Assembly (NCBI GenBank): GCA_964017065.1
Contig: OZ024790.1
Span: forward strand, 6,499,422 to 6,563,421
Reading direction: 5' to 3'
DNA: 64,000 nt
Source of the DNA: Haliclona indistincta
Taxonomy: Eukaryota > Porifera > Demospongiae > Haplosclerida > Chalinidae
Both the position numbers and the translations under genes were made by a program. Under the pieces are notes generated by a model that did no database searches, had not been told where the DNA came from, and worked only from the letters and a program-made list of their open reading frames with translations. This document shows positions 1-40,750 of this stretch, one piece after another. Each line of letters starts with the position of its first letter. The first letter of the stretch is position 1.

Positions 1-299
1 TGCACCAGACGTGTAGCTAGTCATAGAAGAGTTCACTTGTGTGTGTGTCAGTGTGCTGTTATCACTGGTATTATAAGACACTACATAGTGAAAGACTGGG
101 AAACCATCTAGAGGCTAAAGCAACAAAAATAAATAATTGTTAGTATCAATGTCATTAATTATTGCATTCATACCTGCCATAGCACATTAATATTTGTTAG
201 TTGTAACTGTACTATGAAGCTCACAATATCAGGAACTGTGGTAATGGACAGAGTATAATTTTCAAGAATTCATAAATAATTAGATAGTCCATATCATCA

Positions 300-1947
300 C
301 AAGAAAATTAAAAAGATTTCTATCGAAATCAAAAGGATGTAGTGATGAAGAAATCTACTACTGGTCCACAATGTAAACCAACAAGGAACAACCATGGAAT
401 GGTAACACGATTGACTTGCTAACAGACCATAGATCCCTACATCAGTGGCTGCTGTGGCTGACTATAGCTAGTTCAGCTAGTTGCTGTTGACTGACACATG
501 GCGTGCATTGAATTGAATTCAGCTTGTGACAAAAATATTGATCTTATGTACAGCCACTGATGTAGGGATCTATGGTCTGTTAGCAAGTCAATCGTGTTAC
601 CATTCCATGGTTGTTCCTTGTTGGTTTACATTGTGGACCAGTAGTAGATTTCTTCATCACTACATCCTTTTGATTTCGATAGAAATCTTTTTAATTTTCT
701 TGTTTGTGTCCTTTTTTCTTTTTCAGTGAAGTGCAGTTCAATATCATGCATGTACTGAGCCGTCTTTGTTTCCACCATTAGTTTACTTTTACTGTTGTTG
801 ATGCCTTTTCTTTATAATTATTACAGCTAAAAATTGATTGTCATATCAGTTCGCCTACGCAGTGCATACGAGCCCCGCCCACACTTGCTTGTACACGTAC
901 ACACGTAGGACAGGTTATTATTATTTATTATTATTATTCACTTCACAACAATCAATAGAGTGATTGTTGAAGGACAACACATATAGTGAAGCCTAGTATA
1001 GATAAGTTCCATTAAGAGAAAGGTGAGCAGGAAGAACAAGGGCATAAAAAGTGGTAGGAACATGGAAATAATCTGGCAAGCGCAGAATAGTGATCCTACA
1101 CGAGCTTACCATTCTTCGAAGACTCCAGACAAATAAATTATGTGTTCTCTGTGATTGATACGGCGCGACGATACTCAAGCTGGTGCTTGGTCACGTGCGC
1201 TAACCACTGCTTGGTCACGTGCGTATTGCGCAATCACAATAATGGCGTCTAACACTTAGCTGACAATTATTATTATTATTATTATTGAGAACACACACCA
1301 ACATAGGTGCATAATTATAATTATGAAGTTAGAATAGTCCGGAGCATTAGTTCAGTATCAGAAGTACCATGAATAATGTCAAGATTCCTTTTCAAAAAAG
1401 GGCGAACAACAGCAGCACAATATTTATCATCATCATGGTAGATTTTCAAAAATTGCGACCCAAACACAGAATTGAGACCAGCGAAAGAATACACCAGAAC
1501 AGATGAATCACGAAAAACAGCACGAACAAGCAGATTCGATGGATCATGATCGAGAAGTCGCAGAATTTATATCGCCGTTTCGCTAAAAACGAAGTTCGAA
1601 AGGCACCTGCCAGGAGAATTTCACGACTGGTCGTGGGTGTTTTGGTCTCGGCACTGCTCGCATAAAGGCGCTAGGCGCGCTGAAGAAAGAAAGAAAGAAG
1701 AAGAAAACGAAGATGACGAAACTCGATTTTCACCGTTTCCAGGTTCGTCACCTTAGTAACAATTTCGAGCGATCTCCTTGCTACTGTAAGATGGGGCAAC
1801 GCTAGAGAGCAGATCTAAGTGTCTTTGGACGTTTAAAATTCATCACCAGGCGAAATATCAGCGTTTGAACGCTAATACATTGTATGTAGCCGCCATCTTG
1901 TTTTCTCGTTCATCCCTACATAGGGAGTCACTACCGTGCCTCCCTAA
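300..1947 (+). mobile_element. Foldback/hairpin repeat, copy A
   Basis: Starts CAAG at 300. The first ~400 bp are a large imperfect palindrome: arm 300-470 is the reverse complement of 540-701. Then come a T-rich spacer, a block beginning catacgagccccgcccac, an aagaaagaag-rich stretch, the sequence gtagccgccatcttg, and a terminal hairpin (tagggagtcac...gtgcctccctaa) at about 1919-1947. The same order recurs in copies B, C and the diverged E. No coding capacity is seen; it looks non-autonomous. Confidence 0.75.
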
Positions 1948-1953
1948 TATAAA

Positions 1954-2097
1954 TTTTTAGTTCACGTACAGCTGTTATTATTAATCCTGAGGATAAACAG
2001 GTGATCTATCTGAATGAATGCTATTTTCATTGTTGTATCTAGAACTTGAATGAGAGAATAAACACAGAAATTGATTTTGTGTTCATAGCTTGCACAA
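1954..2097 (+). promoter_or_regulatory. Conserved upstream region of Ig/ITIM-like gene 1
   Basis: From tttttagttcacgtac onward about 145 bp is almost identical to 4421-4564 upstream of gene 2, ending at both start codons. Conservation of non-coding DNA together with the gene suggests a shared promoter/5' UTR, although recent duplication alone could explain it. Confidence 0.45.
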
Positions 2098-3552
2098 ATG
2101 GAGTCTCATCACATCGTCAGCTTATTGTTGATATTTCACAAGATTGCTCAGTATTGCTCAGGTGAGCTAATCTGCATACTTGTTGCTATTGACAATTTAT
2201 AGCCAACCACAGGTCAGTGTATGTATGAGTACACTCAGCAACCTCCTTCAACTACATTAAGCAGCTGTAATCCATATCATAATGATAATATTATTTTTAT
2301 AGCAATCGATTGTATTGTGAAGTATCAAACTAATGAGTTTGAAATACGATGGTTCAGAGAGAACACAACTGGAGCAGTAGAGGACCTGGGACTTGGCTAC
2401 AGTGAAAGCTTGAACTCGGGAAACATGCATTGGCTGTCAAGGTATCATGGTTCCTTCAACCAGCAGTACAACCCCAGCTATCTCGGCAAGTACTGGTGTC
2501 AGGTGATCAACACAACAGCTGATCCTGACCAGCCTCTGATGAGGAGCAATGTGTTCACTCTACTGGCTCCTGAGAACTACACTCAACCAACATGTGTTAA
2601 CCAGAGCACAACAATACAGACAATGACTAATATAACATGTGCTGATCTACCAGTTCACTCTGAACAGACCACATTACCTGCTCCTACCACTACACTGAGT
2701 TTATATGTTTCAGTAAATCCTAATAAATATGCAGAGTTTACTTCATTTCAACTATCGCCTTTTGATACTGCAGTAGACCCAACTACCTCAAGCTTAATGA
2801 TGCCTACTAAAGGACATATGATCGTACTAGTATCAGTAGTAGGAGTGTGTGCAGTAGTTCTACTACTCATTGTCTGCTCATCACTGATTGTAATACTGAT
2901 AGTGATACACCAGAGGAGGAGGAGGAAGAAGAAGACACAAAACTACTCTACCAGCAAAGACAATGGTTAGTGAAAAATTGGTATTAAAATCTGTCAGCTA
3001 GAGAAGTACATATACAATGCTTATACATTATTATTATAATACATTTTGTGTAGATGGTTACAATGTCACCTCTGCTTCACTTCACGAGATGCCCATTGCT
3101 AGTGAAAAGCAAAGACTACAACAGGAACCTGAAGTAGTCTACAGTGTTGTGAATCTAGCTAACCAAACCAAGAGAGATAACGAGGACAACAAAGATGGAG
3201 CGCCATCTCCTGGTATAAGAAAAATAGGAAGTAAGAAAACTTTGAATGGTATTTTATTGTGTTTGTGTCAATTACTTGTATGATGGTAGATCATCAAATG
3301 ACTGAAGATCCACAATATTGGAATCCTCACTATTATGATCTTCGGCCAATGCCACACACTCACAATGATGACCAGCAGAGCTCCCACTACCAACCACTGG
3401 ACACTGTTACCACTGACTACACCAGTATGTACACCACACCCTGCACTAGTGCTGGGAAGAAAGGAGCACCCTCAGTGAAGATAGGAGACCTGGATTACGC
3501 CATTGTAGACCCTACTAGTAGAGAGGAACACACCTACACTATTCCACAATGA
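2098..3552 (+). CDS. Single-Ig transmembrane receptor with ITIM-like tail (gene 1)
   Basis: Exons 2098-2161, 2213-2965, 3054-3212, 3290-3552, joined in a consistent frame (GT-AG, all phase 1), give 412 residues. A signal peptide (MESHHIVSLLLIF) is followed by a V-type Ig domain: cysteine in IDCIVKY, tryptophan in IRWFRE, and YLGKYWCQV as the F-strand Y-x-C. A Thr/Ser-rich stalk with N-glycosylation sites leads to one membrane helix (IVLVSVVGVCAVVLLLIVC onward) and a basic stop-transfer run RRRRKKK. The cytoplasmic tail carries EVVYSVVNL, SHYQPL and LDYAIV, each fitting the (I/V/L/S)xYxx(I/V/L) pattern, plus EHTYTIPQ at the end. Such motifs recruit SH2 phosphatases in vertebrate inhibitory receptors; that role here is inference. 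Tandem with gene 2. Confidence 0.8.
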
Positions 3553-3957
3553 TAACAGTAAATTAGTATGTATTCCATGAAAAACTTGAGTACATTGTAC
3601 TAGCTTGTATTGTTGCTCATTTCTTTGTAAGAGAATACCATTGAGGAGACTCTTCACTCCATCTAAAGTGTATGCATATATGCAATACTGTTTGTAGTTC
3701 TGAGAACACCACTAAACTCATTCAATATTTCTTTGAATGAGTGTTCATTATTACTAGTTGTGTTGTAGTGGAGCCGCATGAATGAGTGACAAACACATAC
3801 ATGTAGTAAAAACACTGACCATTTTAATTTGAGGTCATGATCTGTCCAGTCTTCATGAATCAACGGAGTCTATTGATACACTGTTATCAGCTTATTGGTG
3901 ATCATAAATATCTGTTTATTTGGAGTTGTTCAGATGAGTCGAGTTATAGATAAAATT

Positions 3958-4350
3958 TCTCCTTTTAAATACACACAGCAACCTCCTTCTAATACATTAA
4001 ACTGCTGTATTCTTTATCATAATGGATTCATCACAATATGACACTGGAGTGTATTGTGAGATATCAGAGTAGTGAGTTTGAAAATTAAATTATTGAAATA
4101 CGATGGTTAAGAGAGACCACAAATAGAGCAGTAGAGGACCTGAGACTAGATGACCCTAGTGGATCACTAACTCAAGTAAGAGAAGGAAGCATGCATTGGT
4201 TCTCAAGATATCATGACAGTGACTTTATCAACCAGCTATGCAACCCCAGCTATCTCGGCAAGTATTGGTGTCATGTGATCAACTCAACAGCTGATCCTGA
4301 CCAGCCTCTGATGAGGAGCAATGTGTTCACTAATACAGACCACATTACGT
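3958..4350 (+). pseudogene. Decayed copy of the Ig/ITIM-like Ig exon
   Basis: The stretch resembles the Ig exons of the flanking genes: acacagcaacctcctt near the start, then the tryptophan region, the NPSYLGKYWC-like segment near 4245-4270 and the ADPDQPLMRSNVFT-like segment near 4290-4330. Stops, indels and lack of the signal, membrane and tail exons show a relic. It points to at least three tandem copies in the past. Confidence 0.7.
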
Positions 4351-4420
4351 ACTATAAGTGATTGCATCAGGGTTTAGGGTTTACACAGTGACTCTATGTA
4401 TGGATGTATCATGTGTATAT

Positions 4421-4564
4421 TTTTAGTTCACGTACAGCTGTTATTATTAATCTTGAGGATAAACAGGTGATCTATCTGAATGAAAGTTATTTTCATCGTT
4501 ATATTTAGAACTTGAATGAGAGAATAAACACAGAAATTTATTTTTGTGTTCATAGCTTGCACAA
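4421..4564 (+). promoter_or_regulatory. Conserved upstream region of Ig/ITIM-like gene 2
   Basis: Matches 1954-2097 base for base apart from a few substitutions. In this copy the repeat A end is absent, so the match defines where copy A joins native DNA (after 1947). Confidence 0.45.
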
Positions 4565-6213
4565 ATGGAGTCTCATCACATCGTCAGCTTATTGTTGATA
4601 TTTCACAAGATTGCTCAGTATTGCTCAGGTGAGCTAATCTGTATAGTTGCTGCTATTGACAATTTATAGCCAACCACAGGTCAGTGTATGTATGAGTACA
4701 CTCAACAACCTCCTTCAACTACATTAAGCAGCTGTAATCCTTACAATCATATCGGAATCATTACAATAGTGATGGACTGTATTGTGAGGTATCAAACTAA
4801 TGAGTTTGAAATACGATGGTTCAGAGAGAACACAACTGGAGCAGTAGAGGACCTGGGACTTGGTTACAATGAAAGCTTGAAGTCGGGAAACACACATTGG
4901 CTGTCAAGGTATCACGGTTTCTTCAACCGGCAGTACAACCCCAGCTTTCTCGGCAAGTACTGGTGTCAGGTGATCAACACAACAGCTGATCCTGACCAGC
5001 CTCTGATGAGGAGCAATGTGTTCACTCTACTGGCTCCTGAGAACTACACTCAACCAACTTGTAATAATCAGAGTACAGCAACACAGACAATGGAGAATAT
5101 AACATGTGCTGATCTACCAGTTCACTCTGAACAGACCACATTACCTGCTCCTACCACTACACTGAGTTCATATGTAAACTTGGAGAAATTCAGCTTTTCT
5201 CAATTATCAAACTATGCAACAGTTGGTAAGGATGCAACGACATGAGAATTTTGAAGAATTACAGTAGCAATTGTAATACAGTGCTGCATAGTGCTATATT
5301 TTAGCATTCACATTTATAATATTTTCTCGCTCTCCACTCTATAGCATTCCTCAGCTCAACTCCATTATCGTCATCATTTACAACAGCAGTAAACCCAACT
5401 ATCTCAAGTTCAGTGACACTCAATGAAGCACCTATCATTGTATCAGTAGTAGGAGTGTGTGCAGTAGTTCTACTAGTCATTGTCTGCTCATCACTGGTTG
5501 TGATACTGATAGTGATACACCAGAGGAGGAGGAGGAGGAAGAAGGGACAAAACAACTCTACCAATAAAGTTAAAGGTTAGTTAAAGAAATTCTGCATCAT
5601 CTTAGTCATTATAATCAGGAGCTTATAATGAGAATGAGTGAAGTAGGAAGCTTTCCTATACTATGCTCAACCTCAATAATATGCCTTCTTGTTACAATTC
5701 TTCAGCATTACTTAATAAATTTATCTATTATAGATGGTTACAATATCAGCACTCCTCCACTACAGTGAGTACTATATTACCATTACTTGCTAACTCCATC
5801 GTGTGTGTACATACAGGAATTTAGAATCATCTGTTGTAACTGAGAGTGCTTTTAGCAACTCACGTACTTACGATATGCCCATTGATAGCAATGACCAGCA
5901 ACAGGAACCTGAAGCGGTCTACAGTGTTGTGAATCTAGCTAACAAAACCAAGAGAAAGGACAACAAGCATGACAAAGATGGAGTACCATCTCCTGATATC
6001 AGTGAGGTACCACCCACACTAGATAATCCAGTGTACATGACAGGATGTGTTGGAGGGTTGGATCACCAGTACAGCTCTCTCAACCATCAGGTGCAGCTGT
6101 CAGCTACCACTCATGATGATCAGCAGTCACTAAAAAGAGATGATACTGATAGTGATGGACAGTATTCTAAGATCAAGATTGATATTTACAATCAGCCTTT
6201 AGAAGATACTTAA
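4565..6213 (+). CDS. Single-Ig transmembrane receptor with ITIM-like tail (gene 2)
   Basis: Exons 4565-4628, 4680-5225, 5345-5575, 5734-5764, 5817-6213 give 422 residues in a continuous frame. Signal and Ig exons are near copies of gene 1 (same RWFRENTTGAVEDLGLGY core). Unlike gene 1 the membrane helix has its own exon (IIVSVVGVCAVVLLVIVC, then RRRRRKK). The tail has diverged: it keeps EAVYSVVNLANKTKR but gains NPVYMTG, HQYSSLN, GQYSKIKI and DIYNQPL, so several YxxL/I/V sites remain although the -2 residue is often not aliphatic. The pair may therefore share a ligand-binding design but differ in signalling strength. Function is inferred from domain layout only. Confidence 0.78.
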
Positions 6214-7321
6214 TTTGCAGACTACTATGTAATCATAGAATGTTAGAAAATAAAAAGATTTCTAACGAAATCAAAAGGATGTAGGGATAAAGAAATCTGC
6301 TACTGGTCCACAATGTAAACCAACAAGGAGCAAGCATGGAATGGTAACACGATTGACTTGCTAACAGACCATAGATCCCTACATCAGTGGCTGCTGTGGC
6401 TGACTATAGCAGTTCAGCTAGTTGCTGTTGACTGACACCTGATATGAATTCAGCTTGTATCAAAATCAAAATCAGCTGTCTTATGTACAGCCACTGATGT
6501 AGGGATCTATGGTCTGTTAGCAAGTCAATCGTGTTACCATTCCATGCTTGCTCCTTGTTGGTTTACATTGTGGACCAGTAGCAGATTTCTTTATCCCTAC
6601 ATCCTTTTGATTTCGTTAGAAATCTTTTTATTTACTTGTTTGTGTCCTTTTTCTTTTCATTGAGTTTCAAATTTTTGGTGCAGTTAGAAATCGGCAAGAT
6701 AATGTATCTCTTTGATTCTACCATTGGTTTGGTTTGCTGTTGTTGATAATTGCTTTTTAACTTGTAGCTCCAAACTAGCTCATGCATGTTGCAGGATTGC
6801 ACTGCATACGAGCCCCGCCCACTCTGGTTTAGCAATTTCTGTATGGCTGTGATACTATCTGGCAAGCAGCAGAACGATGATACTACACGAGCTTACTCGG
6901 TGAGTTGTTCTTCGAAGACTCCAGACGCCAATATGCGCTCTCCATACGGCGATACTCTACTAATAAATTCGAGATTCGTGTGATAGGTCACGTGCGCATT
7001 ACGTAATCACAATAATGGCGTCTAACACTTAGCTGAAAACTGTTCGTGATCGTGAACTCGTCAAATTTATATCGTCGTTTCGCTAAAAACAAAGTTCAAA
7101 AGGCACATGCCAGGAGAATTTCACGACTGTTCGTGGGTGTTTTGGTCTCGGCACTGCTCACGTAAAGGTGCTAGGCGAGTGGAAGAAAGAAGAAGAAAAC
7201 GAAGATGACGAAAGTCGATTTTCACCGTTTCCAGGTTCGTTACTTTAGTGACCATTTCGAGGAATCTCCTTGCTACTGTAAGATGGGGCAACGCCAAATA
7301 GCAGATCTAAGTGTCTTTGGA

Positions 7322-7391
7322 CGTATAATATTCATCAACAGCCATCCACGTATAATATTCATCAACAGCCAGCCACGTATAATATTCATCA
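7322..7391 (+). repeat. 27-bp tandem repeat at the LINE 5' junction
   Basis: Two and a half copies of cgtataatattcatcaacag plus a 7-bp tail. Other copies of the repeat family have this sequence once, so it was expanded at the 5' end of the LINE insertion. Confidence 0.8.
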
Positions 7392-8601
7392 GCCTTGACT
7401 TGTCTAAGGCTTTCGACAAGGTGCCCCACCATAAGCTCCTTTCCTCCTTGTCTGATGTTGGTGTCTCTGGTTCTCTGCTGAGTTGGTTTGAGTCATACCT
7501 CTCCTGTCGTTCCCAACAGGTTGTCTTAGGTGGCTCTTCTTCCACTCCACTCCCTGTCTTGTCAGGTGTCCCACAAGGGTCCATCTTAGGGCCTCTTCTG
7601 TTTATCATCTACGTTAATTCGTTAGCAAATCTATATCTTTCTCCTGGCTCCTCTCTTATTTTGTACGCAGATGACATCTTGCTCTATCGTGCACTCTGTT
7701 CTGCTGATGATAACTCCATCCTTCAGCGTGCTGTTGACTCGTTGCTTGCTTGGATAACTTCAGCCGGCCTCTCTGTCAACCTGGCTAAGAGCACGCTTCT
7801 CCTCATCTCACGTATGAGATCCAAGCCTAGTCTTTCTATCCTCTTAAATTCCACTCCTGTTCCTATATCTGATTCGGTGAAGTATTTGGGAGTCACTATA
7901 TCTAGCGACCTGACTTGGAACCGGCATGTCTCTAATATCTGCCTCTCTGCCAGGAAAAGGCTTGGTTTGCTCTACAGGACATTCAGCCAATGTGACAAGC
8001 AATCTTTGTCTCGATTATACAAATCTCTGATTTTGCCTAAGCTTGACTATTGTTGTGGTGTTTGGGATCCCTCTACGTCAGTCCTTAGAGACAAATTGGA
8101 GTCCACTAACAAATTTGCTGCTAAGATCTGCACTAAGCGTTGGTCCAGCCCTTCTCCTTTGTCTCACCTTGGTTGGTCTGATTTAGCTACTCGCCGTAAG
8201 ATCCAAAAAGTTTTGCTCTGTCGCAGGATTCTAAGGAATCAATCTATAATTCTGCCGTCTGCCTATTTCTCTTCTCCTCCCGTGAGTAATACTCGTTCTT
8301 CTACCCTCAAACACGCCGTCTCTATCCCATTTGCAAGAACTAATTCATTTCAATCTTCTTTTTTTGTTTCTGTATGTCATTTGTGGAACAGTCTTCCTTT
8401 CAATATCACTTTATTGTCTTGTAATCGTTTGTTTAAGTTGTCTGTTACTCGGTTTTTTAATTAGTCGTATTTTTCTTGCCACCTTTATTTTGTAGTTTTA
8501 CTTTTGGACAGTCTTATTCATTAGCATTAAGTTGCCATTTGTTCTGTTCCTTGCTTTGCTAAATTCTATTAAAGAAAAAAAAAAAAAAAAAAAAAAAAAA
8601 A
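7391..8601 (+). mobile_element. 5'-truncated LINE (non-LTR retrotransposon), RT domain and 3' end
   Basis: An open frame (7205-8464, whose first part is host repeat sequence) encodes a reverse transcriptase C-terminal half: DLSKAFDKVPHHKLL (palm A), VPQGSILGPLLFIIYVNSL (finger/palm B), YADDILLY (catalytic YADD, palm C), and the thumb-like KLDYCCGVW region, ending at a TAG at 8462-8464. A ~27-base poly(A) at 8575-8601 closes the element. The N-terminal endonuclease and much of ORF2 are missing, as in target-primed reverse transcription that stopped early. It resembles the Jockey/CR1/L2-like group; clade is not resolved by eye. Dead on arrival. Confidence 0.85.
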
Positions 8602-9535
8602 CAGGCGAAATATCAGCGTTTGAACGCTAATACATTGTATGTAGCCGCCATCTTGTTTTCTCGTTCATCCCTACATAGGGAGGCACTACCGTGCCTCCCT
8701 AATATGTGACTGTGAGTTGATCACTCCATGGTCCACGTTGTCCTGTACTGTCAGTAACAGCCACAGCAAATGAGTATAGTTGTGTCCACGAGTGATCAGG
8801 TCATCAGTCAGTATCAGTGACTCAGTGTTGCTAGTACTGTAGCACGAGCTAGAGCTACTGTAGTTAGTGATATTGATAGTGTAGTTGAAGACACAGTCTA
8901 TGTGGGTCCATTAGGAGGAGCTAGCCATGTTAGTGATACTGGTGGCTTGCTGGTGATACTAAGATTATATGGAGAACTTACTGCACCTAAAATACACAAT
9001 CATTGTAATACATGTACATGCATGAATTATCATACATCATCAATGATGTCAGGTACTTCTGCATTGAAATTGCACTGACCTGCTACACTAATCTCCCTAG
9101 ACTCAACCACTGTGCCTGTTTGACATCTTATCTCACTGTTGTGATAAGACAATGGAACACTAAGGATAGTGACAGTTGACATCACTGTGCTGTTCTCAAA
9201 AGAATTAAATACAGCAGTAAAGATGCTGGGATCATAGGTTCCTGATGTAGTCCCATCACTGCGAGTAGCCATAGTTTTGTTGTAGACCCAAATTAGTGTT
9301 GGCAGCAAATTATTTTGATTCACTGTTCTAACAACAGTGCAGTTAAGAGTGACGTCTTGTCCAGGACAGGCTGATCCATTAGCTGTCAGGTTAATAGGCT
9401 CGAGTACAATGGTTTCAGACACTTGTGCAGCTGAATTAAATAACAATGTAGCAATACAGGCGTGACATAATAATGCTGCTTTGTCTCACCTATGCATATG
9501 ATGTGATCTATTAACAAAATAAGAATGATTTTCAT

Positions 9536-10014: not shown

Positions 10015-11963
10015 TTATAGTTGTATTTGTTGATAAGCCTCATTGTGTTTGAGTGGTATTGTCCCTCCATAAGCTACGTTGTGTTGAGTAGTGATGGTGT
10101 GTTGTGTTATTGGTGTGTCATAGATCACTGGAGCTAGCTCAATGACTCCTCCTCCTCCTGCTGATGGTGGTGATGGTGTAGTGACTGGTGGTTTATCATG
10201 ATGAGGTCTCATAACACACCACACAATGATACTAGTGATAATAGCTGTACTGATGGCTGTCACTAATACACTAACAAGAACAGAGCTGGATATTACTGTG
10301 ACAATGAGAGTAATAAAATAAATTTGGAACACACACATCAAGTATGTTGTGTTGCTATAGTTGTAACTCACTTGGTACAATAGATCCACAATCACGATCT
10401 ATATTATGATCAAGCAAATTGAGCATTAAGGTTAGTCAATATAATAATGAACTTGTTTTAAATGTTGCTGAGTAAGTTTATAGAATGTCAAGCAATCTGA
10501 CATAGAATGCATTTTGCATTGCAATTATAAAGCCAGTTATTACTAATAGTTATCTTATGTAGCAGAGCTAAGTATCTTACAGAATGATGACTCACAGGCT
10601 ATGCACTACATGCTATGTGGTGTTTTACTTTTGACTTACCTGTGATACTAGGTGTAGTGGTAACATAAACAAAAGAAGAACTTGTATCAGCATTAGTTGA
10701 AGTTTGTATTACAGTTATTGTTGCAGTGCTTATAGGAGACAGCATCACTACATAGATGGAAATGGTGATGATGAACTGTAGTAGAACACTGTTACCAGTA
10801 GCTATAGAGTCATTATAAATTTATATATAGTTCCAGGTCCCAGAGCATTGACAGCAAGCACTGTAATATAGTAGGTTACTCCTGGTACACCAGACACTGT
10901 GTAGCTGTTGACGGTAGGGTTCAGTTTAGCTTGTAACTCAATGTTATCACTGGTATTATAAGACACTACATAGTGAAGGACTGAGAAACCAGCTATCAGT
11001 GGAGGAGGCTGGAATAAAGAAAAGATCCAGTAATCAGAAATTTAGCATAATTATTTTATTCTCACTATACATACCTGCCATGTCACATTAATATTTGTTA
11101 TTTGTAACTGAGCTATAAAGTTTACAATACCAGGAACTGAGACAACATAACATCATGTAAAACTGAATAAATTTTCATACCATCATATGTGGCTGCGAGT
11201 TGATCACTCCATGGTCCATGTTGTCCTGTACTGTCAGTAACAGACACAGCAAATGAGTAGTTGTGTCCACGAGTGATCAGGTCATCAGTCAGTATCAGTG
11301 ACTCAGTGTTGCTAGTACTGTAGCACGAGCTAGAGCTACTGTAGTTAGTGATATTGATAGTGTAGTTGAAGACACAGTCTGTGGGTCCATTAGGAGGAGC
11401 TAGCCATGTTAGTGATACTGGTGGCTTGTTGACGATGATACTGAGATTAGATGGAGGACTAGCTGCACCTTGTGTATTATTAATTAAAAATTAAGCAGTT
11501 ATTAGTACTACTTCAAAGTTACCTGCTATCATGATGGTCTCGGATTTTACAATCCCAAAAACAGCTGATTCACAGGTGATAGCTCTGTCATGATCAGATA
11601 TTTGAACACTATTAATAGTAGCATTTGACATCACTGTTAATCCCACAACGTGAGATACAACAGTATAGTAGACACTGGTATGTGATGGGTTATTGTATAC
11701 TATGAGATCTCCTCTATACTGCCATTGCAATGACGGTGGATTTTCGGATACATTTTTCATTCTAACAATAGTGCAGTTGATAGTGACATCTAGTCCAGGA
11801 CAGGCTGATAGTCCACTAGCTGGTTGAACAGGATGAAGTATGACTGTGTCTTCAACTTGACCAGTCACAAGATCTGTGGCTACTGTAGGTTGAGAACAAA
11901 ATATCACCTACTATTGTAATTACCTGTAGCTAGAAGACAGACTAGCACAATGTGTTGTAGCAT
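10015..11963 (-). pseudogene. Ig-FN3-FN3 receptor unit L5 (frameshifted in FN3b)
   Basis: Exons: signal 11924-11963, Ig 11523-11882, FN3a 11181-11468, FN3b1 11075-11136, FN3b2 10796-11008, stalk 10640-10747, mini-exon 10372-10398, TM/tail 10015-10295. The Ig is nearly identical to that of R5 (MKNVSENPPSLQWQYRGD), making L5 and R5 mirror sisters across the array axis. The tail is the proline type (MRPHHDKPPVTT) ending IYDTP...AYGGTIPL...EAYQQIQL. FN3b2 is 8 bp longer than in L1 near 10810-10835, which shifts frame and brings an in-frame stop before the donor, so this allele would lose membrane anchor and tail unless splicing differs. Confidence 0.8.
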
Positions 11964-28486: not shown

Positions 28487-28741
28487 TTGACTTAATTATA
28501 TTTACAAGCAGCACTGCATTTTAGTTATAGAGCACATGACTACAAAGTATTCAACTATAATATACCCAATGAGCTGTACAGCACAAGAAAACTATTCACA
28601 AACATCAACTATAGTACAGTCAGTGGGCGGAAATGGTTCTACTGTTATCAGTAAGCTCAGCAACAACAACAAGTTTATACACAATAAATAATTATGTTCT
28701 TGGTGTTTGTCAACATTATTTGTGTGTTTTTCATATTGCAG

Positions 28742-29019
28742 CAACTACAGTATCCGTTGTTCTAGTTAGTGTATTGATAGTATCAGTCATCAGTACAGCT
28801 ATTATCACTAGTATCATTGTGTGGTGTGTTATGAGGAGGAGACCATCATCACATGCTAAAGCAACATCTGATGCTAGTAAAAAACATCTAACTCCAGCAA
28901 TCTATGACACTCCTAATGCTGTTAATGAACATACCATCGCTACTCAAGACAACGTAGCTTATGGAGGGACAATACCACTCAAACACAATGAGGCCTATCA
29001 ACAAGTGAATATTAAGTGA
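28742..29019 (+). pseudogene. Tail-only receptor module R0
   Basis: A last exon alone: acceptor at 28741, helix SVVLVSVLIVSVISTAII, arginine-type stem RRRPSSHAKA, then a diverged segment KKHLTPAIYDTPNAVNEHT and the common AYGGTIPL...EAYQQVNIK end with stop at 29017-29019. A possible juxtamembrane exon ends near 28649. Ig and FN3 exons would have to lie in or beyond the N gap. The spacing EHTIATQD resembles R7 more than the neighbours. Either a truncated gene or the 3' end of one lost in the gap. Confidence 0.6.
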
Positions 29020-29364: not shown

Positions 29365-29989
29365 GTGCTGCTGCTCACCACAATCACTGGAGCACAACTG
29401 TAAATTCTCTGTATATCTGTTACAGACTTCTACTATTGATCAACTCTGCTTTACAACTGGTTAGTTATTAGCTTATTGCATAACCGATATCACAAACAAT
29501 ATACAATGTGTACATAGTTGTGAGCTGTTCACAAACACCATCGGATATAGTGGGATGCAGTGGATCTGTAGCTACTGGTGAGTTACAAAAACAACAAAAG
29601 CATGATGACACAATGGCTGAATACTTTGTGTATGTCATCATTAGTGTGTGTGTTTCTCTCTCACTACAGTAACTACAGTATCTGTGGTTCTTGTTAGTGT
29701 ATTGATAGTATCAGTCATCAGTACAGCTATTATCACTAGTATCATTGTGTGGTGTGTTATGAGGAGGAGACCATCATCACATGCTACAGCAACTACTAGT
29801 ACTACTGGTACTAATGCTGATCACAGTGATAAAGGAGTCACTGAGCTAGCTCCAGTGATCTATGACACACCAATAACACAGCACACCATCACTACTCAGC
29901 ACAACGTAGCTTATGGAGGGACAATACCACTCAAACACAATGAGGCTTATCAACCACTACAACTACAAAAATATTTATGTGTATTATGA
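29365..29989 (+). pseudogene. Tail-only receptor module R1p
   Basis: Stalk exon 29365-29459, juxtamembrane exon 29518-29577 and TM/tail exon 29670-29989, all with good splice signals and matching R2, but no Ig or FN3 exon between R0 and here. The last codons differ: instead of EAYQQVNIK it reads EAYQPLQLQKYLCVL, changing the final tyrosine motif to YQPL. It could serve as an alternative 3' end for a neighbouring transcript or be a simple truncation. Confidence 0.6.
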
Positions 29990-30086: not shown

Positions 30087-32396
30087 ATGCTTCAACACAC
30101 TGTGCTAGTCTGTCTACTAGCTATAGGTAACTACAATAGCTATACTATCTAGTAGGTGCTGCTAAACATCTTTCAACCTCATTACAGATCTGGTGGCAGG
30201 TCAAGTTGAAGACACAGTCATACTCCATCCTGTTCAACCAGCTAGTGGACTATCAGCCTGTTCTGGACAAAATGTCACTATCAACTGCACTATTGTTAGA
30301 GTAACCAATACATCAGGAGTGGTACCACCACCATTGACATGGCAGTATAGAGGAGACACCATCATATACGATGATCAATTTGCTAGCAGTGACTATTACA
30401 CTCTGGTATCTCATATTGTGGGATTAACAGTGATGTCGATTGCTACTATTGATAGTGTTAAAATATCTGATCATGACAATACTATCACATGTAGATCATC
30501 GATTTCTACTACACACTCAGAGAACATCACAATAGCAGGTAATAACTTATACTCAGATGTATAGCACACTAGAGATGAGATCAGTTCTATAAAGTTGATC
30601 AGGCATGCACTAATGCTTGTTGAAGTTTAATTTCTACTTATTACATTTCAGCTGATTCTAGCACAAGCTTATAGCTAGCACAAAACTCATCTCAGCTCAA
30701 ATTAAACATAATTATGGCAATGGGTATTGACATAATTATAATTGTTGCTCATGAGTGTTTCATTTTACTGATTGAATACGTGATAGGTCCGAGGGGATAA
30801 TTATTGGGACGACAAACAAACTAAATGTTCCTCTAAACCATGTACAGAACATTATGGATTCATCACTATGTGATCAAGCATGCATGTTCAAATAATTTTG
30901 CATTGTATTGTCTAATAAAGGTGCAGCTAGTCCTCCATCTAACCTGAGTATCATCAGCAAGCCACCAGTATCACTAACATGGCTAGCTCCTCCTAATGGA
31001 CCCACAGACTGTGTCTTCAACTACACTGTCAATATCACTAACTACAGTAGCTCTAGCTCGTGCTACAGTACTAGCAACACTGAGTCACTGATACTGACTG
31101 ATGACCTGATCACTCGTGGACAGAACTACTCATTTGCTGTAGCTGTTACTGACAGTACAGGACAACATGGACCATGGAGTGATCAACTCACAGTCACATA
31201 TGATGGTATGAACTATTTAATTTGTGAATTCTTGAAAATTATACTCTGTCTATTACCACAGTTCCTGATATTGTGAGCTTCATAGTACAGTTACAACTAA
31301 CAAATATTAATGTGCTATGGCAGGTATGAATGCAATAATTAATGACATTGACATTAACAATTATTCATTTTTGTTGCTTTAGCCTCGAGATGGTTTCCCA
31401 GTCCTTCACTATGTAGTTTCTTATAATACCAGTGATAACAGCTCACTGATACACACACAAGTGAACTCCTCTATGACTAGCCACACAGTGTCTGGTGTAC
31501 CAGGAGTAACCTACTATATTACAGTGTTTGCTGTCAATGCTCTGGGACCAGGACCTATCAATGGATACTCTATAGTGAATGGTGAGTGCATTAATATATC
31601 TGTTCAACTTATTACCTCAACTATTAAACTCAGTGTCTGTGCTTTCCACATCAACAAATAATCCTCGGTTATAATAATCTATATAGAAATAATCCTAGGA
31701 TCAGGACCAGTCCTATAGTGATTTAAATATAGAGAATGGTTATAGAATACATGTATTATTTTATTTATCAATTTTAGTCCCCGCGCTGCTGCTCACTACA
31801 ATCACAGGAACACAACTCCCAACTGTTGATCTGTTTCAGACTTCTACTACTGATCAACTTTGCTATACAACTGGTTAGTTATTAGCTTATTCCATAACTG
31901 ATAATTTTGTATCACAAACAATATACAATGTGTACATAGTTGTGAGCTGTTCACAAACACCATCGGATATAGTGGGATGCAGTGGATCTGTAGCTACTGG
32001 TGAGTTACAAAAACAACAATAACATGATGACACAATGTCAGAATACTTGGTGTGTGTCATCATCATTAGTGTGTGTGTTTCTCTTTCACTACAGTAACTA
32101 CAGTATCTGTGGTTCTTGTTAGTGTATTGATAGTATCAGTCATCAGTACAGCTATTATCACTAGTATCATTGTGTGGTGTGTTATGAGGAGGAGACCATC
32201 ATCACATGCTACAGCAACTACTAGTACTACTGGTACTAGTGCTGATCACAGTGATAAAGGAGTCACTGAGCTAGCTCCAGTGATCTATGACACACCAATA
32301 ACACAACACACCATCACTACTCAACACAACGTAGCTTATGGAGGGACAATACCACTCAAACACAATGAGGCTTATCAACAAGTGATTATTAAGTGA
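30087..32396 (+). CDS. Ig-FN3-FN3 single-pass receptor, unit R2 (intact)
   Basis: Exons 30087-30126, 30188-30538, 30921-31205, 31262-31323, 31383-31581, 31778-31873, 31940-31999, 32095-32396 total 1395 nt, 464 residues, all phases consistent. Signal peptide MLQHTVLVCLLAI; Ig with ACSGQNVTINC, LTWQYRGD and TITCRS; FN3a nearly identical to other units; FN3b with LIHTQVNSSMTSHT and VPGVTYYITVFAVN; cysteine-containing juxtamembrane exon (VVSCSQTPSDIVGC); helix SVVLVSVLIVSVISTAII; arginine-type tail with VIYDTP, NVAYGGTIPL and EAYQQVIIK. The signal and Ig start resemble L1, the stalk and tail resemble L3/L4, so it looks chimaeric relative to the left arm. Best reference gene for the family. Confidence 0.87.
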
Positions 32397-33082: not shown

Positions 33083-35205
33083 TGACTGCAGTGAAAGTCG
33101 ATTTGTTCGTCTTTGCATTGATTAGTGTCACTTCAGATTATTAGGTAAGAAGGATCTCTCATTGCCGTTAATTGTCCAGAGTTGTTGATCCTGCATGCAG
33201 CTCAGGGGCAAGTGTCTGACAGCATTACACTCGAACCTATCAACCCAGCAGCTAATGGATCGGCCTGTCCTGGACAAAACATCACTCTTAACTGCACTGT
33301 TGTTAGAACAGTGGGAAACAGTATGTCGGTATTCCAACCAGTAATGAATTGGATCTACAGAAATACCATAAGCATCAACAGTGATGGAACTAAATCTGGG
33401 AATAATCCCGGTATTTTCACTACAGAATTTATCATTGAGAACTTCTTAGTGGTGTCTACTGCCACAATACTTGAAGTTTCATTGTCTCATCACAACAGTG
33501 AGATAAAATGTCAAACTGCCTTAGCACTGCCTGAGTCTAGGAATATCAGTATTGCAGGTGTGACTACTATCATGCATAAATCATGTTTCAATGCTATCGT
33601 ATTTCAGGTGCAGCGATTTCACCCTCGAATCTGAGTATCAGTACTGCACCAGTATCACTAACATGGCTAGCTCCTCCTAATGGACCCACAGACTGTGTCT
33701 TCAACTACACTATCAATATCACTAACAACAGTAGCTCTAGCTCGTGCTACAGTACTATAGCAACACTGAGTCACTGATACTGACTGATGACCTGATCACT
33801 CGTGGACACAACTACTCATTTGCTGTGGCTGTTACTGACAGTACAGGACAACATGGACCATGGAGTGATCAACTCACAGTCACATATGAGGGTATGAAAT
33901 TTATTCAATTTTACATGATGTTATGTTGTCTCAGTTCCTGATATTATAAACTTTATAGCTCAGTTACAAATAACAAATATTAATGTGACATGGCAGGTAA
34001 GTGTAGTGAGCTAAATTTCTGATTAATGTCGGGATCTTTCCCTTTTTCAGCCTCCTCCAGTGATAGCTGGTTTCCAAGTCCTTCACTATGTAGTGTCATA
34101 TAATACCAGTGATAACATTGAATTACAGGCTAAACTAAACCCTGCCGTCAATAGTTACACAGTGTCTGGTGTACCAGGAGTAACCTACTATATTACAGTG
34201 TTTGCTGTCAATTGTCTGGGATCAAGACCTATCAGTGAATACACTACAGTTAATGGTGAGTTGAATACATTATCATATGATTTTCATGAGCTCATTGTCC
34301 AGTTCCACTGCTTCCTACTACTACTTCAACACAATTTTCAACTAATACAATAATATATACTGATTCTGTTATGATGAAAAGCTCTTAACAAGTCATCTCT
34401 ACAACTAGTTGTAAGTTTACTTCTTCATGTCATAACTGTTGTTCATATATAGCATAGTTACAGAGTATGAGATCTGCAGTACAACACAAATAGTGACATG
34501 TGCTAGCACACCAGATACAGTACAACCAGTCGAGAATAATGCAGCTAGTGAGTTATAACAACAAATGACAATTAGAGAGGTCGGCAAGTCACTTGAGATG
34601 ATCAAGTTTACTATTACTGTGTCATTTAGTGCAGTTTAATAAAAGAGCATGTTAAACAATCCAAGGTAATTTTAAAGTTGACCTCTGTCGGGCGAATCAA
34701 AGTTGGCTAACTTCAATAATTTTGCTGAGTGACTGAGCATCAAATTGGCTGAATTGTGATTCTTGTGGAGATTTTTTTAACTCACACCATTTTTGTTATT
34801 TACTTTCACAATAAGCTTTGCTGCATAATTGTATTGTTTCGTCTCATGTGATCAATGTCAACCTCCTGCAATGAATCGTGTTCCATCATTAATTTTGTAT
34901 ATTCTTCTCTCATTGTCACAGTAATATCCAGCTCTGTTCTTGTTAGTGTATTAGTGACAGCCATTAGTACAGCTATTATTACTAGTATCATTGTGTGGTG
35001 TGTTATGAGACCTCATCATGATAAACCACCAGTCACTACACCATCACCACCATCAGCAGGAGGAGGAGGAGGAGTCATTGAGCTAGCTCCAGTGATCTAT
35101 GACACACCAATAACACAACACACCATCACTACTCAACACAACGTAGCTTATGGAGGGACAATACCACTCAAACACAATGAGGCCTATCAACAAATACAAC
35201 TATAA
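33083..35205 (+). pseudogene. Ig-FN3-FN3 receptor unit R3 (frameshift in FN3a)
   Basis: Possible signal exon from ATG 33083 (MTAVKVDLFVFALIS; its donor is uncertain), Ig 33201-33557, FN3a 33608-33891, FN3b1 33935-33996, FN3b2 34051-34255, stalk segments about 34307 and 34458-34549, TM/tail 34922-35205. The Ig is of the L6/R7 class (INSDGTKSG loop, ACPGQNITLNC). One extra base in agtactatag near 33757 shifts FN3a out of frame. The tail is proline type with five glycines (SAGGGGG). The signal exon would read a stop if the consensus-like donor at 33146 is used. Mixed ancestry: class I Ig with the shared FN3a and tail. Confidence 0.72.
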
Positions 35206-35373: not shown

Positions 35374-37659
35374 ATGCTACAACACATTGAGCTTGCCTGT
35401 CTACTAGCTATAGGTGAGCCCTCAGTTGCTATAGGCTACTAACTTGCTCTCTTCTCAGCTAGCTAGCACATGCACAGATTTGGTGAAAGGTCAAGTAGTT
35501 GAAGACACAGTCATACTCCATCCTGTTCAACCAGCTAGTGGACTATCAGCCTGTCCTGGACAAGATGTCACTATCAACTGCACTATTATTAGAATAACCA
35601 ATACACCAGGAGTGGAACCACCACCATTGCAATGACAGTATAGAGGAGATCTCATAGTATACGATGATCCATTCCGTACCAGTGTCTACTATACTACTGT
35701 ATCTCATGTTGTGGGATTAACAGTGATGTCAAATGCTACTATTAATAGTGTTCAATTATCTGATCATAACAGAATGATCACATGTAGATCACAGATTTCT
35801 ACCATACACTCAGAGACCATCACAATAGCAGGTAATAATAATTATATCATCTGATGTATAGCACACTAGAGTTCAAAGTTGATCAGGCACTATTTCTTGT
35901 TGAAGCTTTTCTAATTTCATTCCAGCTGATTCCAGCACAAGCTTAGCTCAAGTTTAACATAATTAAGAACAATGGGTAGTGATAGCTCTCGAGTGTTTCA
36001 TTGTACTGATTGAATACATGATAGGTCCGAGGGGATATTGGGACGTCAAACAGACTAAATGTTCCTCTACTACACCATGTACAGTACATTATAGATTCAC
36101 CACAATGTGATCAAGCAAGCATGTTCAAATAATTTTGTATTATATTGTCTACTAAAGGTGCAGCTAGTCCTTCATCTAATCTGAGTATCATCAGCAAGCC
36201 ACCAGTATCACTAACATGGCTAGCTCCTCCTAATGGACCCACAGACTGTGTCTTCAACTACACTATCAATATCACTAACTACAGTAGCTCTAGCTCGTGC
36301 TACAGTACTAGCAACACTGAGTCACTGATACTGACTGATGACCTGATCACTCGTGGACACAACTACTCATTTGCTGTGGCTGTTACTGACAGTACAGGAC
36401 AACATGGACCATGGAGTGATCAACTCACAGTCACATATGATGGTATGAAAATTTTTCAATTTTACATGATGTTATGTTGTCTCAGTTCCTGCTTTTGTAA
36501 ACTTTATTGCTCAGTTACAACTAACAAAATTTAATATTAATGTGACATGGCAGGTAAGTGTAGTGAGAATATTATGCTAAATTTCTGATTACTGGATCTT
36601 TCCTATATTCCAGCCTCCTCCACTGATAGCTGGATTTCCAGTTCTTCACTATGTTGTGTCTTATAATACCAGTGATAACAGTATAGTGGTACAGGCTCAA
36701 CTGAGCCAATCTCACAATAGTTACACAGTGTCTGGTGTACTAGGAGTAACCTACTATATTACAGTGTTTGCTGTCAATGCTCTGGGACCAGGACCTATAT
36801 CTAATGACTCTATAGCTACAGGTAATACTGCATGTAATTTCTACTACAGTTCATCACCACCATTTCCATCTATGTAGTGATGCTGTCTCCGATGAGAACT
36901 GCAACAATAACTGCAATGCAAACTTCAACAAATGTTGATACAAGTTCTTCTATTGTTTATGTTACCACTACACCTAGTATCACAGGTTAGTCAACACCAC
37001 ATAGCATGTAGTGCATAGCCTGCGAGTCTTCATTCTGTAAGATACTCAGCTCTGCTACATAAGATTACTACTATTAGTAATAACTGGTTTTATAATTGCA
37101 ATGCAAAATGCATTCTATGTCAGATTGCTTGACATTCTATAAACTTACTCAGCAACAATTAAAACAAGTTCATTATTGTATTGACTAACCTTAATGCTCA
37201 ATTTGCTTGATCATAATATAGATCGTGATTGTGGATCTATTGTACCAAGTGAGTTACTACTATAGCAACATAACATACTTGATGTGTGTGTTCCAACTTT
37301 ATTTTATTCCTCTCATTGTCACAGTAATATCCAGCTCTGTTCTTGTTAGTGTGTTAGTGACAGCCATCAGTACAGCTATTATCACTAGTATCATTGTGTG
37401 GTGTGTTATGAGACCTCATCATGATAAACCACCAGTCACTACACCATCACCACCATCAGCAGGAGGAGGAGGAGTCACTGAGCTAGCTCCAGTGATCTAT
37501 GACACACCAATAACACAACACACCATCACTACTCAACACAACGTAGCTTATGGAGGGACAATACCACTCAAACACAACGAGGCTTATCAACAAGTGAATA
37601 TTAAATTTTCCTTATTAATTAATTTTGAGAATCTGTTTATATTCTACATAAGGTTATAG
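35374..37659 (+). pseudogene. Ig-FN3-FN3 receptor unit R4 (in-frame TGA in Ig, stop lost in tail)
   Basis: Exons: signal 35374-35413, Ig 35463-35831 (acceptor after cagctag), FN3a 36158-36442, FN3b1 36486-36553 (two extra codons), FN3b2 36614-36821, stalk 36878-36985, mini-exon 37222-37248, TM/tail 37325-37659. The conserved core tryptophan codon of the Ig (LQWQY in sisters) is TGA at 35633-35635, a single G-to-A change. The tail lacks 7 bp that include the usual stop, so the frame runs 16 codons on past EAYQQVNIK. All other frames are open, implying recent inactivation or a null allele. Proline-type tail. Confidence 0.8.
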
Positions 37660-37765: not shown

Positions 37766-39720
37766 ATGCTGCAACACATTGTGCTAGTCTGTCTACTACC
37801 TATAGGTAACTACAATAGCAGGTGATGCTAACAACATTTTGCTCTCAACCTACAGTAGCCACAGATCTTGTGACAGGTCAAGTTGAAGACACTGTCATAC
37901 TCCATCCTGTTCAACCAGCCAGTGGGCTATCAGCCTGTCCTGGACAAGATGTCACTATCAACTGCACTATTGTTAGAATGAAAAATGTATCAGAAAACCC
38001 ACCGTCACTGCAATGGCAGTATAGAGGAGATTTCATAGTATACAATAACCCATCACATACCAGTGTCTACTATACTGTTGTATCTCATGTTGTGGGATTA
38101 ACAGTGATGTCAAATGCTACTGTAAATAGTGTTCAAATATCTGATCATGACAGAGCTATCACCTGTGATTCACCCGTTTTTGGGATTGTAAAATCCGAGA
38201 CCATCATGATAGCAGGTAACTTTGAAGTAGTACAAAGAACTGCTTAAATTTTTATAATAATACACAAGGTGCAGCTAGTCCTCCATCTAATCTGAGTATC
38301 ATTGCCAGCAAGCCACCAGTATCACTAACATGGCTAGCTCCTCCTAATGGACCCACAGACTGTGTCTTCAACTACACTATCAATATCACTAACTACAGTA
38401 GCTCTAGCTCGTGCTACAGTACTAGCAACACTGAGTCACTGATACTGACTGATGACCTGATCACTCGTGGACACAACTACTCATTTGCTGTGGCTGTTAC
38501 TGACAGTACAGGACAACATGGACCATGGAGTGATCAACTCACAGTCACATATGATGGTATGAAATTCATTATTCAGTTTTACATGATGTTATGTTGTCTC
38601 AGTTCCTGGTATTGTAAACTTTATAGCTCAGTTACAAATAAAAAACATTAATGTGACATGGCAGGTAAGTGTAGTGAGAATAATTATTATGCTAAATTTC
38701 TGATTACTGGATCTTTTCTTCATTCCAGCCTCCTCCACTGATAGCTGGCTTCCCAGTCCTTCACTATGTAGTGTCTTATAATACCAGTGATAACAGTATT
38801 GAAGTGCAGGCTATACTGAGCCCGTCTCACAATAGTTACACAGTGTCTGGTGTACCAGGAGTAACCTACTATATTATTACAGTGTTTGCTGTCAATGCTC
38901 TGGGACCAGGACCTATATATAATGACTCTATAACAACTGGTAATGCTGCATGCAGTTTCTACTACAGTTCAGCATCACCATTTCCATCTATGTAGTGATG
39001 CTGTCTCCTATGAGCACTGCAACAATAACTGTAATACAAACTTCAACTAATGTTGATACAAGTTCTTCTATTGTTTATGTTACCACTACACCTAGTATCA
39101 CAGGTTAGTCAACACCACATAGCACTGATGTAGTGCATAGCCTGTGAGTCATCATTCTGTAACATATTCAGCTCTGCTACATATAAGATATACAAACTTG
39201 TTTTATAATTGCAATGCAAAATGCATTCTATGTCAGATTGCTTGAAACTCTATAAACTTACTCAGCAACAATTACAACTAGTTCATTATTGTATTGACTA
39301 ACCTTAATGCTCATTATTTTTTTGATCATAATATAGATCGTGATTGTGGATCTATTGTAGCAAGTGAGTTACTACTATAACAACACAACATACTTGATGT
39401 GTGTGTTCCAAATTTATTTTATTCCTCTCATTGTCACAGTAATATCCAGCTCTGTTCTTGTTAGTGTATTAGTATCAGTCATCAGTACAGCTATTATTAC
39501 TAGTATCATTGTGTGGTGTGTTATGAGACCTCATCATGATAAACCACCAGTCACTACACCATCACCACCATCAGCAGGAGGAGGAGGAGTCATTGAGCTA
39601 ACTCCAGTGATCTATGACACACCAATAACACAACACACCATCACTACTCAACACAACGTAGCTTATGGAGGGACAATACCACTCAAACGCAATGAGGCTT
39701 ATCAACAAATACAGCTATAA
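37766..39720 (+). CDS. Ig-FN3-FN3 single-pass receptor, unit R5 (intact)
   Basis: Exons: signal 37766-37805, Ig 37856-38215, FN3a 38269-38556, FN3b1 38603-38664, FN3b2 38729-38939, stalk 38996-39103, mini-exon 39337-39363, TM/tail 39440-39720; no internal stop seen. Ig shows ACPGQDVTINC, RMKNVSENPPSLQWQYRGD and AITCDSPVFG; sister of L5, which is broken. FN3b has one extra isoleucine (YYIITVF). Helix SVLVSVLVSVISTAIITSII, then MRPHHDKPPVTTPSPPSAGG, IYDTP, AYGGTIPL; in the final module lysine-histidine is changed to lysine-arginine (LKRNEAYQQIQL). A putative surface receptor signalling through tail tyrosines. Confidence 0.82.
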
Positions 39721-39839
39721 ATGATCAACTAATGTTCATGTAATATTGAAGAATCTTTTTATTCATGATCAAAAGTATTGTTAGTAGTAAAAAAAATTGA
39801 ATATTTATTATGAATTTTATTCATGATTCAATGGTTTAT

Positions 39840-39853
39840 GGTAGGTGTGGTAG
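39840..39853 (+). promoter_or_regulatory. CACCC-like upstream box, unit R6
   Basis: ggtaggtgtggtag, 55 bp upstream of the R6 start codon. Confidence 0.45.
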
Positions 39854-39907
39854 TTTTTGCTGAAAGCTGATATTATTGAGTGTATTCACTGAACTGGAAC
39901 TGATCAG

Positions 39908-40750
39908 ATGTTACAGCACATTGAACTAGTCTGTCTACTAGCTATAGGTGAGCCCTCAGTTGCTATAGGCTACTAACTTGCTATCTTCTCTCCACATAGC
40001 TGGTACAGGTTTGGTGACTGGTCTAGAAGTTGAAGACACAGTCATACTCCATCCTGTTCAACCAGCTAGTGGACTATCAGCCTGTCCTGGACAAGATGTC
40101 ACTAGAGGAGATCAAATCTTATACAATGATCAATTTGCTAGCAGTGACTTTTACACTCTGGTATCTCATGTTGTGGGATTAACAGTGATGTCAAATGCTA
40201 CTATTAATAGTGTTCAATTATCTGATCATGACAGAATTATCACATGTCGATCACTTGGAAAAATAAGCACAAAGAACATCACAATAGCAGGTAACTATAT
40301 AATAATATTATGTGCACACAGAATTACATGTAGATGATAAATATAATCATTAGGTGCAGCTAGTCCTCCATCTAATCTGAGTATCACCACCATCGAGCCA
40401 CAAGTATCACTAACATGGCTAGCTCCTCTTAATGGACCCACAGACTGTGTCTTCAACTACACTATCAATATCACTAACTACAGTAGCTCTAGCTCGTGCT
40501 ACAGTACTAGCAACACTGAGTCACTGATACTGACTGATGACCTGATCACTCGTGGACACAACTACTCATTTGCTGTGGCTGTTACTGACAGTACAGGACA
40601 ACATGGACCATGGAGTGATCAACTCACAGTCACATATGATGGCATGAAATTTATTCAGTTTTACATAATGTTATGTTGTCTCAGTTCCTGGTATTGTAAA
40701 CTTTATAGCCTGCTCAGTTACAACTAACAAACATTAGTGTGACATGGCAG
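39908..40750 (+). pseudogene. Ig-FN3 receptor unit R6, truncated
   Basis: Exons: signal 39908-39947, Ig 40000-40290, FN3a 40354-40641, FN3b1-like 40685-40750. The Ig exon lacks about 69 bp in frame, removing the first core cysteine (TINC) and the core tryptophan, so the fold cannot form normally. The FN3a donor is GC instead of GT, and FN3b1 has a 4-bp insertion (cctg) that shifts frame. No FN3b2, stalk or tail follows; unrelated sequence begins just after 40760. This is the right edge of the array. Confidence 0.8.

Follow-up and report, generated by a model that had tools for sequence, protein, structure and literature searches.

A near-uniform FN3a stretch between decoupled Ig heads and FN3b-tail backbones in a multi-chromosome receptor family of the sponge Haliclona indistincta

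Among the described systems closest to the one reported here, the clustered protocadherins of fugu undergo regional gene conversion that spares the variable recognition domains, with raised GC content at third codon positions (GC3) used as a mark of conversion (PMC1852091), and in the zebrafish NLR-B30.2 genes, a large recognition family, conversion differs by domain (PMC4852459). The Hydractinia Alr complex comprises at least 41 loci, and allelic control of fusion has been demonstrated there (PMC11067881, PMC11999971). Here we describe a family of receptor genes in the sponge Haliclona indistincta, found in a window of 64,000 nucleotides (contig C8, OZ024790.1, positions 6499422-6563421) and followed through the 144.0-Mb assembly of 46 contigs. 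Each complete unit encodes a signal peptide, an immunoglobulin (Ig) head, an FN3a domain, FN3b and a transmembrane-tail (TM-tail) region bearing tyrosine motifs; the gene models bear out the size of about 2 kb given in a preliminary description of the window. Beyond its first quarter, the FN3a exon is near-identical in the copies compared within a subfamily, even between chromosomes, and the Ig heads on one side of this stretch and the FN3b-tail backbones on the other have largely separate histories. We consider it probable that the family serves recognition and that, with the homogenised stretch as a joint, its Ig heads are reshuffled among FN3b-tail backbones.

The family resembles the fugu protocadherins in its tandem receptors, its variable N-terminal ectodomain and a seemingly converted region with raised GC3, but it is built from Ig and FN3 rather than cadherin domains, its homogenisation crosses chromosomes and starts within one exon, and its 3' part is decoupled from the head (PMC1852091). 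The protocadherin arrangement of variable exons spliced to one constant exon set was not found, as complete units each own a TM-tail exon. Large family size and gene conversion that is unequal between domains are shared with the zebrafish NLR-B30.2 genes; those, however, encode cytoplasmic NACHT proteins in which exchange across groups is proposed for the recognition exon itself (PMC4852459), whereas here the stretch proposed to be exchanged is a constant one adjacent to it. Nearest in outline is the Hydractinia Alr complex, with clustered Ig-superfamily transmembrane genes in an early-branching animal, as here, although the FN3 pair is not mentioned in the parts of those papers drawn on and the likeness is one of description. 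Receptor tyrosine kinases and LAR-type phosphatases also place Ig before FN3 domains, and the PDB sequence matches of the present family include titin and RPTP-F/S, but no catalytic domain was found: the clusters gave no PF07714 match among the matches listed (133 of 1135 candidates scored), in keeping with the earlier account of the units as kinase-free. The present family differs from all of these systems in its architecture, in a uniform stretch whose limits fall inside one exon, in the proposed interchromosomal exchange and in the decoupling of head and backbone, and it would extend the domain-limited conversion of fish protocadherins and NLRs to an apparently early-branching animal, and between chromosomes. 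Titles and abstract openings in the literature searched yielded no description of the family, or of conversion in it; the results section of a survey of very large gene families, Amphimedon among the species covered (PMC5041008), does not mention it, and the main text of a study of Amphimedon grafts (PMC5450542) does not contain the words immunoglobulin, fibronectin or receptor.

Unit coordinates were taken from spliced gene models, made with a spliced aligner built for this analysis, and from exon searches. Window units are named L1 to L6 on the minus strand and R0 to R6 on the plus strand. The reference gene model, R5, has seven exons (short signal peptide, Ig, FN3a, two for FN3b, linker and TM-tail), and its introns are in phase 1 apart from one phase-0 intron within FN3b. 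Complete models stop about 60 residues past the transmembrane segment. A 3-base exon modelled in the first intron of L1 and R2 is an aligner artefact; a single intron preserves the frame. The stretches taken for comparison comprised 20 of 10 kb, nine of 2.6-10 kb and five of 901 bases. From 46 units, 40 entered the codon analysis for FN3a and 39 that for Ig, after removal of units 2, 3, 4 and 7 (divergent cluster or fragment) and of 36 and 37, which nearly duplicate 30 and 31. Aggregates and correlations were computed without the spurious FN3b and TM-tail exons that the aligner assigned to truncated units (including L6, R6 and L4), with 37 units for FN3b and 31 for the tail.

In the FN3a core (codons 21-94, about 220 bp) the proportion of synonymous differences (pS) is 0.038 within C8 (666 pairs) and again 0.038 between C3 and C8 (111 pairs). 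The corresponding values are 0.21 and 0.30 for codons 1-20 of the same exon and 0.34 and 0.50 for the Ig exon, and the introns flanking FN3a differ by 31-55% in the same comparisons. In 30-base windows the first 60 bases of FN3a differ by 15-25%, the rest by 1-5% and the adjoining introns by 35-52%; inside the core the within-C8 and C3-C8 values are nearly equal. The core also has a GC3 of 0.418, against 0.28-0.33 elsewhere. The ratio of nonsynonymous to synonymous differences (pN/pS) in the core is 0.65 within C8 and 0.48 between C3 and C8, and disruption of a copy goes with little loss of uniformity: deviation from the core consensus is 1.6% in 21 disrupted C8 units and 1.2% in 16 intact ones (20% and 18% for Ig), under labels that are rough, some units being cut at stretch ends and some frameshifts lying in badly modelled 3' parts. 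Amino-acid constraint alone is therefore insufficient to account for the core. A second subfamily of three units on C3 (L037) has a different core consensus that is likewise uniform; the Ig differs by 29% in two of its three pairs, in which 45-base core windows differ by 0-4%, and the third pair is a recent duplicate. A copy on C4 (L041) is near-identical in the core only, with the 5' part of the exon clearly diverged, and the FN3a exon of a copy on C9 (L042) differs by 26% on average. We infer that ectopic gene conversion, within a subfamily and across chromosomes, probably keeps the core uniform.

Linkage between the parts of the gene was assessed by Mantel tests on distance matrices of the C8 units. 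Ig is correlated with the intron that follows it (r 0.54, n=23). A further correlation joins the pair of introns lying 3' of the core (r 0.77, n=32). For Ig the association largely disappears across the core: Ig is uncorrelated with the nearer of these two introns (r -0.10, p 0.87, n=31), with FN3b1 (0.06) and with the tail (0.02). The tail exon may be exchanged too, since no correlation links it to FN3b2 (0.04). Individual pairs in the window are mosaic. L1 and R2 lie at a distance of 0.09 in Ig and 0.29 in the 3' block, and L3 and L4 at 0.08 and 0.25; L3 and R2, conversely, are at 0.07 in the 3' block and 0.15 in Ig. R3 carries a divergent Ig (0.49 from R5) on an R5-like 3' block (0.12).

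The Ig exon scores below cut-off with the Pfam Ig models, but its structure model has a predicted local distance difference test score (pLDDT) of 86 and gave six Foldseek matches, most of them to Ig domains, with E values from 3e-5 to 9e-4 and TM-scores of about 0.5-0.6, which points to a predicted Ig fold. The Pfam fn3 model scored 45.6 and 48.1 bits (cut-off 25), with two stretches each and FN3b as the best stretch; the structure model of FN3a alone is of low confidence (pLDDT 58). A cytokine-receptor reading of FN3a was rejected, as Tissue_fac reached 15 bits against a cut-off of 27 and the 60 PDB matches shown gave no support. Across the 31 C8 units whose Ig is not of the divergent type, mean entropy is 1.3 bits in BC, 1.2 in C/C', 1.5 in C'D, 1.1 in F and 1.4 in FG and G, compared with 0.5 in AB and B, 0.7 in EF and 0.8 in A and D/E, and 0.16 in the FN3a core. 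With strands named by our reading of the predicted model, variation would peak on the C-C'-F-G sheet and loops. The C-C'-F-G face is the binding surface in many Ig-superfamily receptors.

The tail carries the motifs VIYDTP, NVAYGGT and NEAYQQ(I/V). Of 40 units examined, 33 have a recognisable tail, and 29 of these match IYDT, NVAYG and NEAY together; pN/pS is 0.63 in the motif block against 1.35 in the spacer, so that the motif block is constrained relative to the spacer. Compared by eye, these motifs do not fit the consensus of immunoreceptor tyrosine-based inhibitory or activation motifs (ITIM/ITAM), which is [ILVS]xYxx[ILV] or paired YxxL/I. We take YDxP to resemble Crk/Nck SH2 sites, and YQQI is presumably akin to a YxxPhi sorting signal.

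The uniformity of the core admits explanations other than conversion. Selection on the nucleotide sequence itself, for a splicing, regulatory or DNA-level element, would suit the near-zero synonymous divergence of parts of the core (pS 0.000 in codons 51-60, for example) and the 3' limit of the uniform stretch, which falls at the exon edge. We consider it rather unlikely, as the core is almost as constant in disrupted copies as in intact ones, core pN/pS is about 0.5-0.65, the second subfamily has another core in the same genome and yet is internally uniform, the C4 copy keeps a near-identical core behind a diverged 5' part, and the C9 exon differs by 26% on average. That the similarity merely reflects recent gene amplification is hardly credible. 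Some units are indeed recent, including a two-unit block of 5.3 kb repeated at 98.7% identity about 101.5 kb away on C8 (L029 1-5347 and L030 18-5370), which reflects either segmental duplication in the recent past or two haplotypes left unmerged; the introns and Ig of the genes that share the core are nevertheless strongly diverged, and intron distances contradict the explanation for the set overall. More speculative, and distinctly improbable, is the idea that the core is a DNA-level recombination joint, uniform because exchange occurs there, through which Ig heads are moved onto FN3b-tail backbones across chromosomes in the germline or even somatically. If true, it would constitute a combinatorial receptor system in an early-branching animal, with no relation to the assembly of V(D)J or VLR receptors. 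Several observations weigh against conversion at a joint between freely shuffled parts. Patches of FN3b are partly homogenised within C8, as is the tail motif block (pS 0.065 within C8). Between Ig and FN3b2 the correlation is low without being clearly absent (r 0.09, p 0.11), the Ig-FN3a intron is correlated with FN3b2 (r 0.31, p 0.003, n=22), the 5' end of FN3a shows weak correlations with Ig (0.24) and with the next intron (0.28), and the core itself is correlated with the intron after it (r 0.21, p 0.04). The same applies to the roughness of the intact and disrupted labels, and to selection on the Ig, which the preliminary description had proposed to compare with that on FN3a: mean Ig pN/pS is 0.77, below 1, and although 10-codon windows reach about 1.3 there is therefore no domain-wide sign of positive selection.

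The Ig ratio and the frequency of broken copies (nine of 12 in the window) would also fit an ordinary adhesion or developmental signalling family, in which Ig diversity is a by-product of birth-and-death evolution and relaxed constraint. We regard this as possible but unlikely. Ig variation is uneven, being high on the C-C'-F-G side and loops while strands A, B, D and E vary little, as do loops AB and EF, and the family size and head-backbone mosaicism appear typical of recognition families. Under the favoured reading of these genes as shuffled recognition receptors, tandem and segmental duplication would create genes, and mutation and insertion would kill them; ectopic conversion, probably acting in the germline, would hold the last three quarters of the FN3a exon near-identical across subfamily copies; and recombination through this shared stretch would join differing Ig heads to differing FN3b-tail backbones. 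The Ig face would then most probably contact variable partners, either self or non-self cells or microbes, and in the simplest case a separate tyrosine kinase would phosphorylate the tail tyrosines, with subsequent docking of adaptors. Self/non-self discrimination in sponges is a long-standing open question, for which the family offers concrete candidate receptors, and an interchromosomally homogenised joint is a testable mechanism of diversification. The preliminary description had proposed an immune or allorecognition complex. The tandem complex, the variable Ig head and the shared tyrosine tail are borne out, whereas the inverted layout crosses a gap and the tail is not of ITIM/ITAM type; 'diverse recognition receptor family' is well supported, and 'allorecognition complex' names one possible use.

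In the window the aligner placed 12 FN3a-carrying units, besides two tail-only fragments. The six minus-strand units and seven plus-strand units or fragments reported earlier for the first 40.75 kb are all present, the latter as five units and two tail fragments. The features are as follows.

8696-9485, minus strand: L6, truncated past FN3a; Ig exon of the divergent type and FN3a exon (two frameshifts, terminal stop)
10015-11963, minus strand: L5, complete seven-exon unit with one frameshift and a stop in FN3b2
12134-12418, minus strand: TM-tail exon of L4, cut off from the L4 ectodomain by a 5-kb insertion
12645-17922, no strand: insertion splitting L4, with 113-bp direct repeats at its ends, 99% identical
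18149-19502, minus strand: L4 ectodomain (signal peptide, Ig, FN3a, FN3b)
19667-21644, minus strand: L3, full-length, three frameshifts in the model
21781-23767, minus strand: L2, full-length, one frameshift in the Ig exon
23944-25904, minus strand: L1, open throughout
26612-27683, no strand: palindromic element at the proposed axis, arms 26612-26894 and 27403-27683, 86% identical
28287-28486, no strand: scaffold gap of 200 N separating the two arms
28735-29013, plus strand: R0, TM-tail exon alone
29681-29965, plus strand: R1, TM-tail exon alone
30087-32396, plus strand: R2, open throughout, RRRPSS-type tail
33149-35205, plus strand: R3, divergent-type Ig with L5/R5-like 3' block, one FN3a frameshift, linker exon not resolved
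35374-37602, plus strand: R4, full-length, single in-frame TGA in Ig
37766-39720, plus strand: R5, open throughout, reference model
38334-38557, plus strand: homogenised FN3a core of R5, FN3a exon codons about 21-94
39908-40760, plus strand: R6, internal Ig deletion, truncated after FN3b1
57717-59546, plus strand: additional unit past the first 40.75 kb, divergent-type Ig, two frameshifts

Three of the 12 units (L1, R2 and R5) are free of frameshifts and stops throughout, and the remaining nine have a frameshift, stop or truncation; part of these disruptions may be sequence errors. The statement that all units end in the same tail did not survive, as L6 and R6 are truncated and the array contains two TM-tail variants. 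An open reading frame (ORF) in the L4 insertion (13230-14552, 440 aa) had no Pfam match above cut-off, and an Rfam search at gathering thresholds found nothing.

The spacing, described earlier as about 130-250 bp, is 121-187 bp at eight of the 11 junctions measured and 529-752 bp at L5/L6, R0/R1 and R2/R3. The mirrored junctions were borne out, with L1/L2 and R3/R4 94% identical over 167 bases and L4/L5 and R4/R5 97% over 163; in addition, L3/L4 and L4/L5 are identical across 164 bases. Multi-kilobase matches, both inverted (21437-25392 against 40104-36152, 86%, 4740 bits) and direct, are far above chance. The units do point outward from an axis as assembled, but R0-R6 and the unit at 57.7 kb share one 45.9-kb contig flanked by fixed 200-N gaps, one of which (28287-28486) separates the arms; their relative orientation is therefore a scaffolding decision, and contiguous sequence does not show the inverted geometry. 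The palindromic element at the proposed axis has further copies near 6.800 and 6.830 Mb in the C8 cluster and on C9, and is thus a repeat rather than a landmark. There is a real chance, somewhat short of even, that the plus-strand contig was flipped and the true array runs head-to-tail. Both of its ends are gaps, and the tail proteins of L1 and R0 (P0078 and P0117) lie on separate public contigs of 111,032 and 404,698 bases; against this, opposite orientations occur inside one contig elsewhere (6623139 plus, 6644939 minus, gap-free between). Inter-arm identity of 86-91% makes it less likely that the arms stem from a duplicated haplotype, but does not tell against a flip of the contig.

The array reported earlier is real but does not end at 40.75 kb: the family continues to the unit at 57717-59546, within a C8 cluster of about 6.45 to 6.92 Mb, and the window array is a slice of a large multi-chromosome family of single-pass receptors. 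The FN3a search gave at least 150 matches (150 of 299 candidates scored), at C8 6.45-6.92 and 9.50-9.55 Mb, C3 0.62-1.64 and 12.75-12.77 Mb, C5, C4 and C6, with more distant matches at C3 5.97-6.93 Mb and on C9. Tail and Ig searches follow most of these clusters, and all of these match counts are lower bounds. At C3 0.62-1.6 Mb there are interleaved FN3 exons merely 40-43% identical to FN3a, a further subfamily.

Public protein sets contain 71 Ig-FN3a relatives of query P0004 and 105 tail relatives. The three tyrosines are kept in all 14 tail proteins inspected (two from the window), with minor neighbouring changes in P0077 and P0153. The tail of one relative, P0089, carries NVAYGGTIPL three times in tandem, followed by NEAYQQ. 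Core identity is 96.2% among 10 of the proteins P0003-P0014, 96.4% among 36 units of the genome and 78% between the two sets. P0003-P0014 had at first been attributed to a second species distinguished by a core consensus of its own; the core of the C3 6.84-Mb cluster (L037) nearly matches theirs, so they represent the second subfamily, and the argument from a comparison of species was abandoned. No near-identical genome copy of P0004 is present (best long match 76%), and P0002 and P0057, with best long genome matches of 50%, may derive from a different animal; our argument does not draw on them.

Reverse-transcriptase ORFs lie at 7175-8464, by L6, and at 56164-57139, by the 57.7-kb unit, and both neighbours are damaged units; the piece 56164-56754 alone had no match of its own. 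A retroelement-like ORF of 1924 codons, with DUF1759 in its first part, lies in 49282-55363 and is flanked by identical 152-bp repeats. On the plus strand at 1950-6213 there is a second receptor-like family, with one Ig-like exon (YWCQV), a transmembrane segment and, by eye, an ITIM-like tail (VVYSVV and LDYAIV); C8 holds only three of its 112 matches, and its larger clusters are at C2 1.90-1.98 Mb and on C10.

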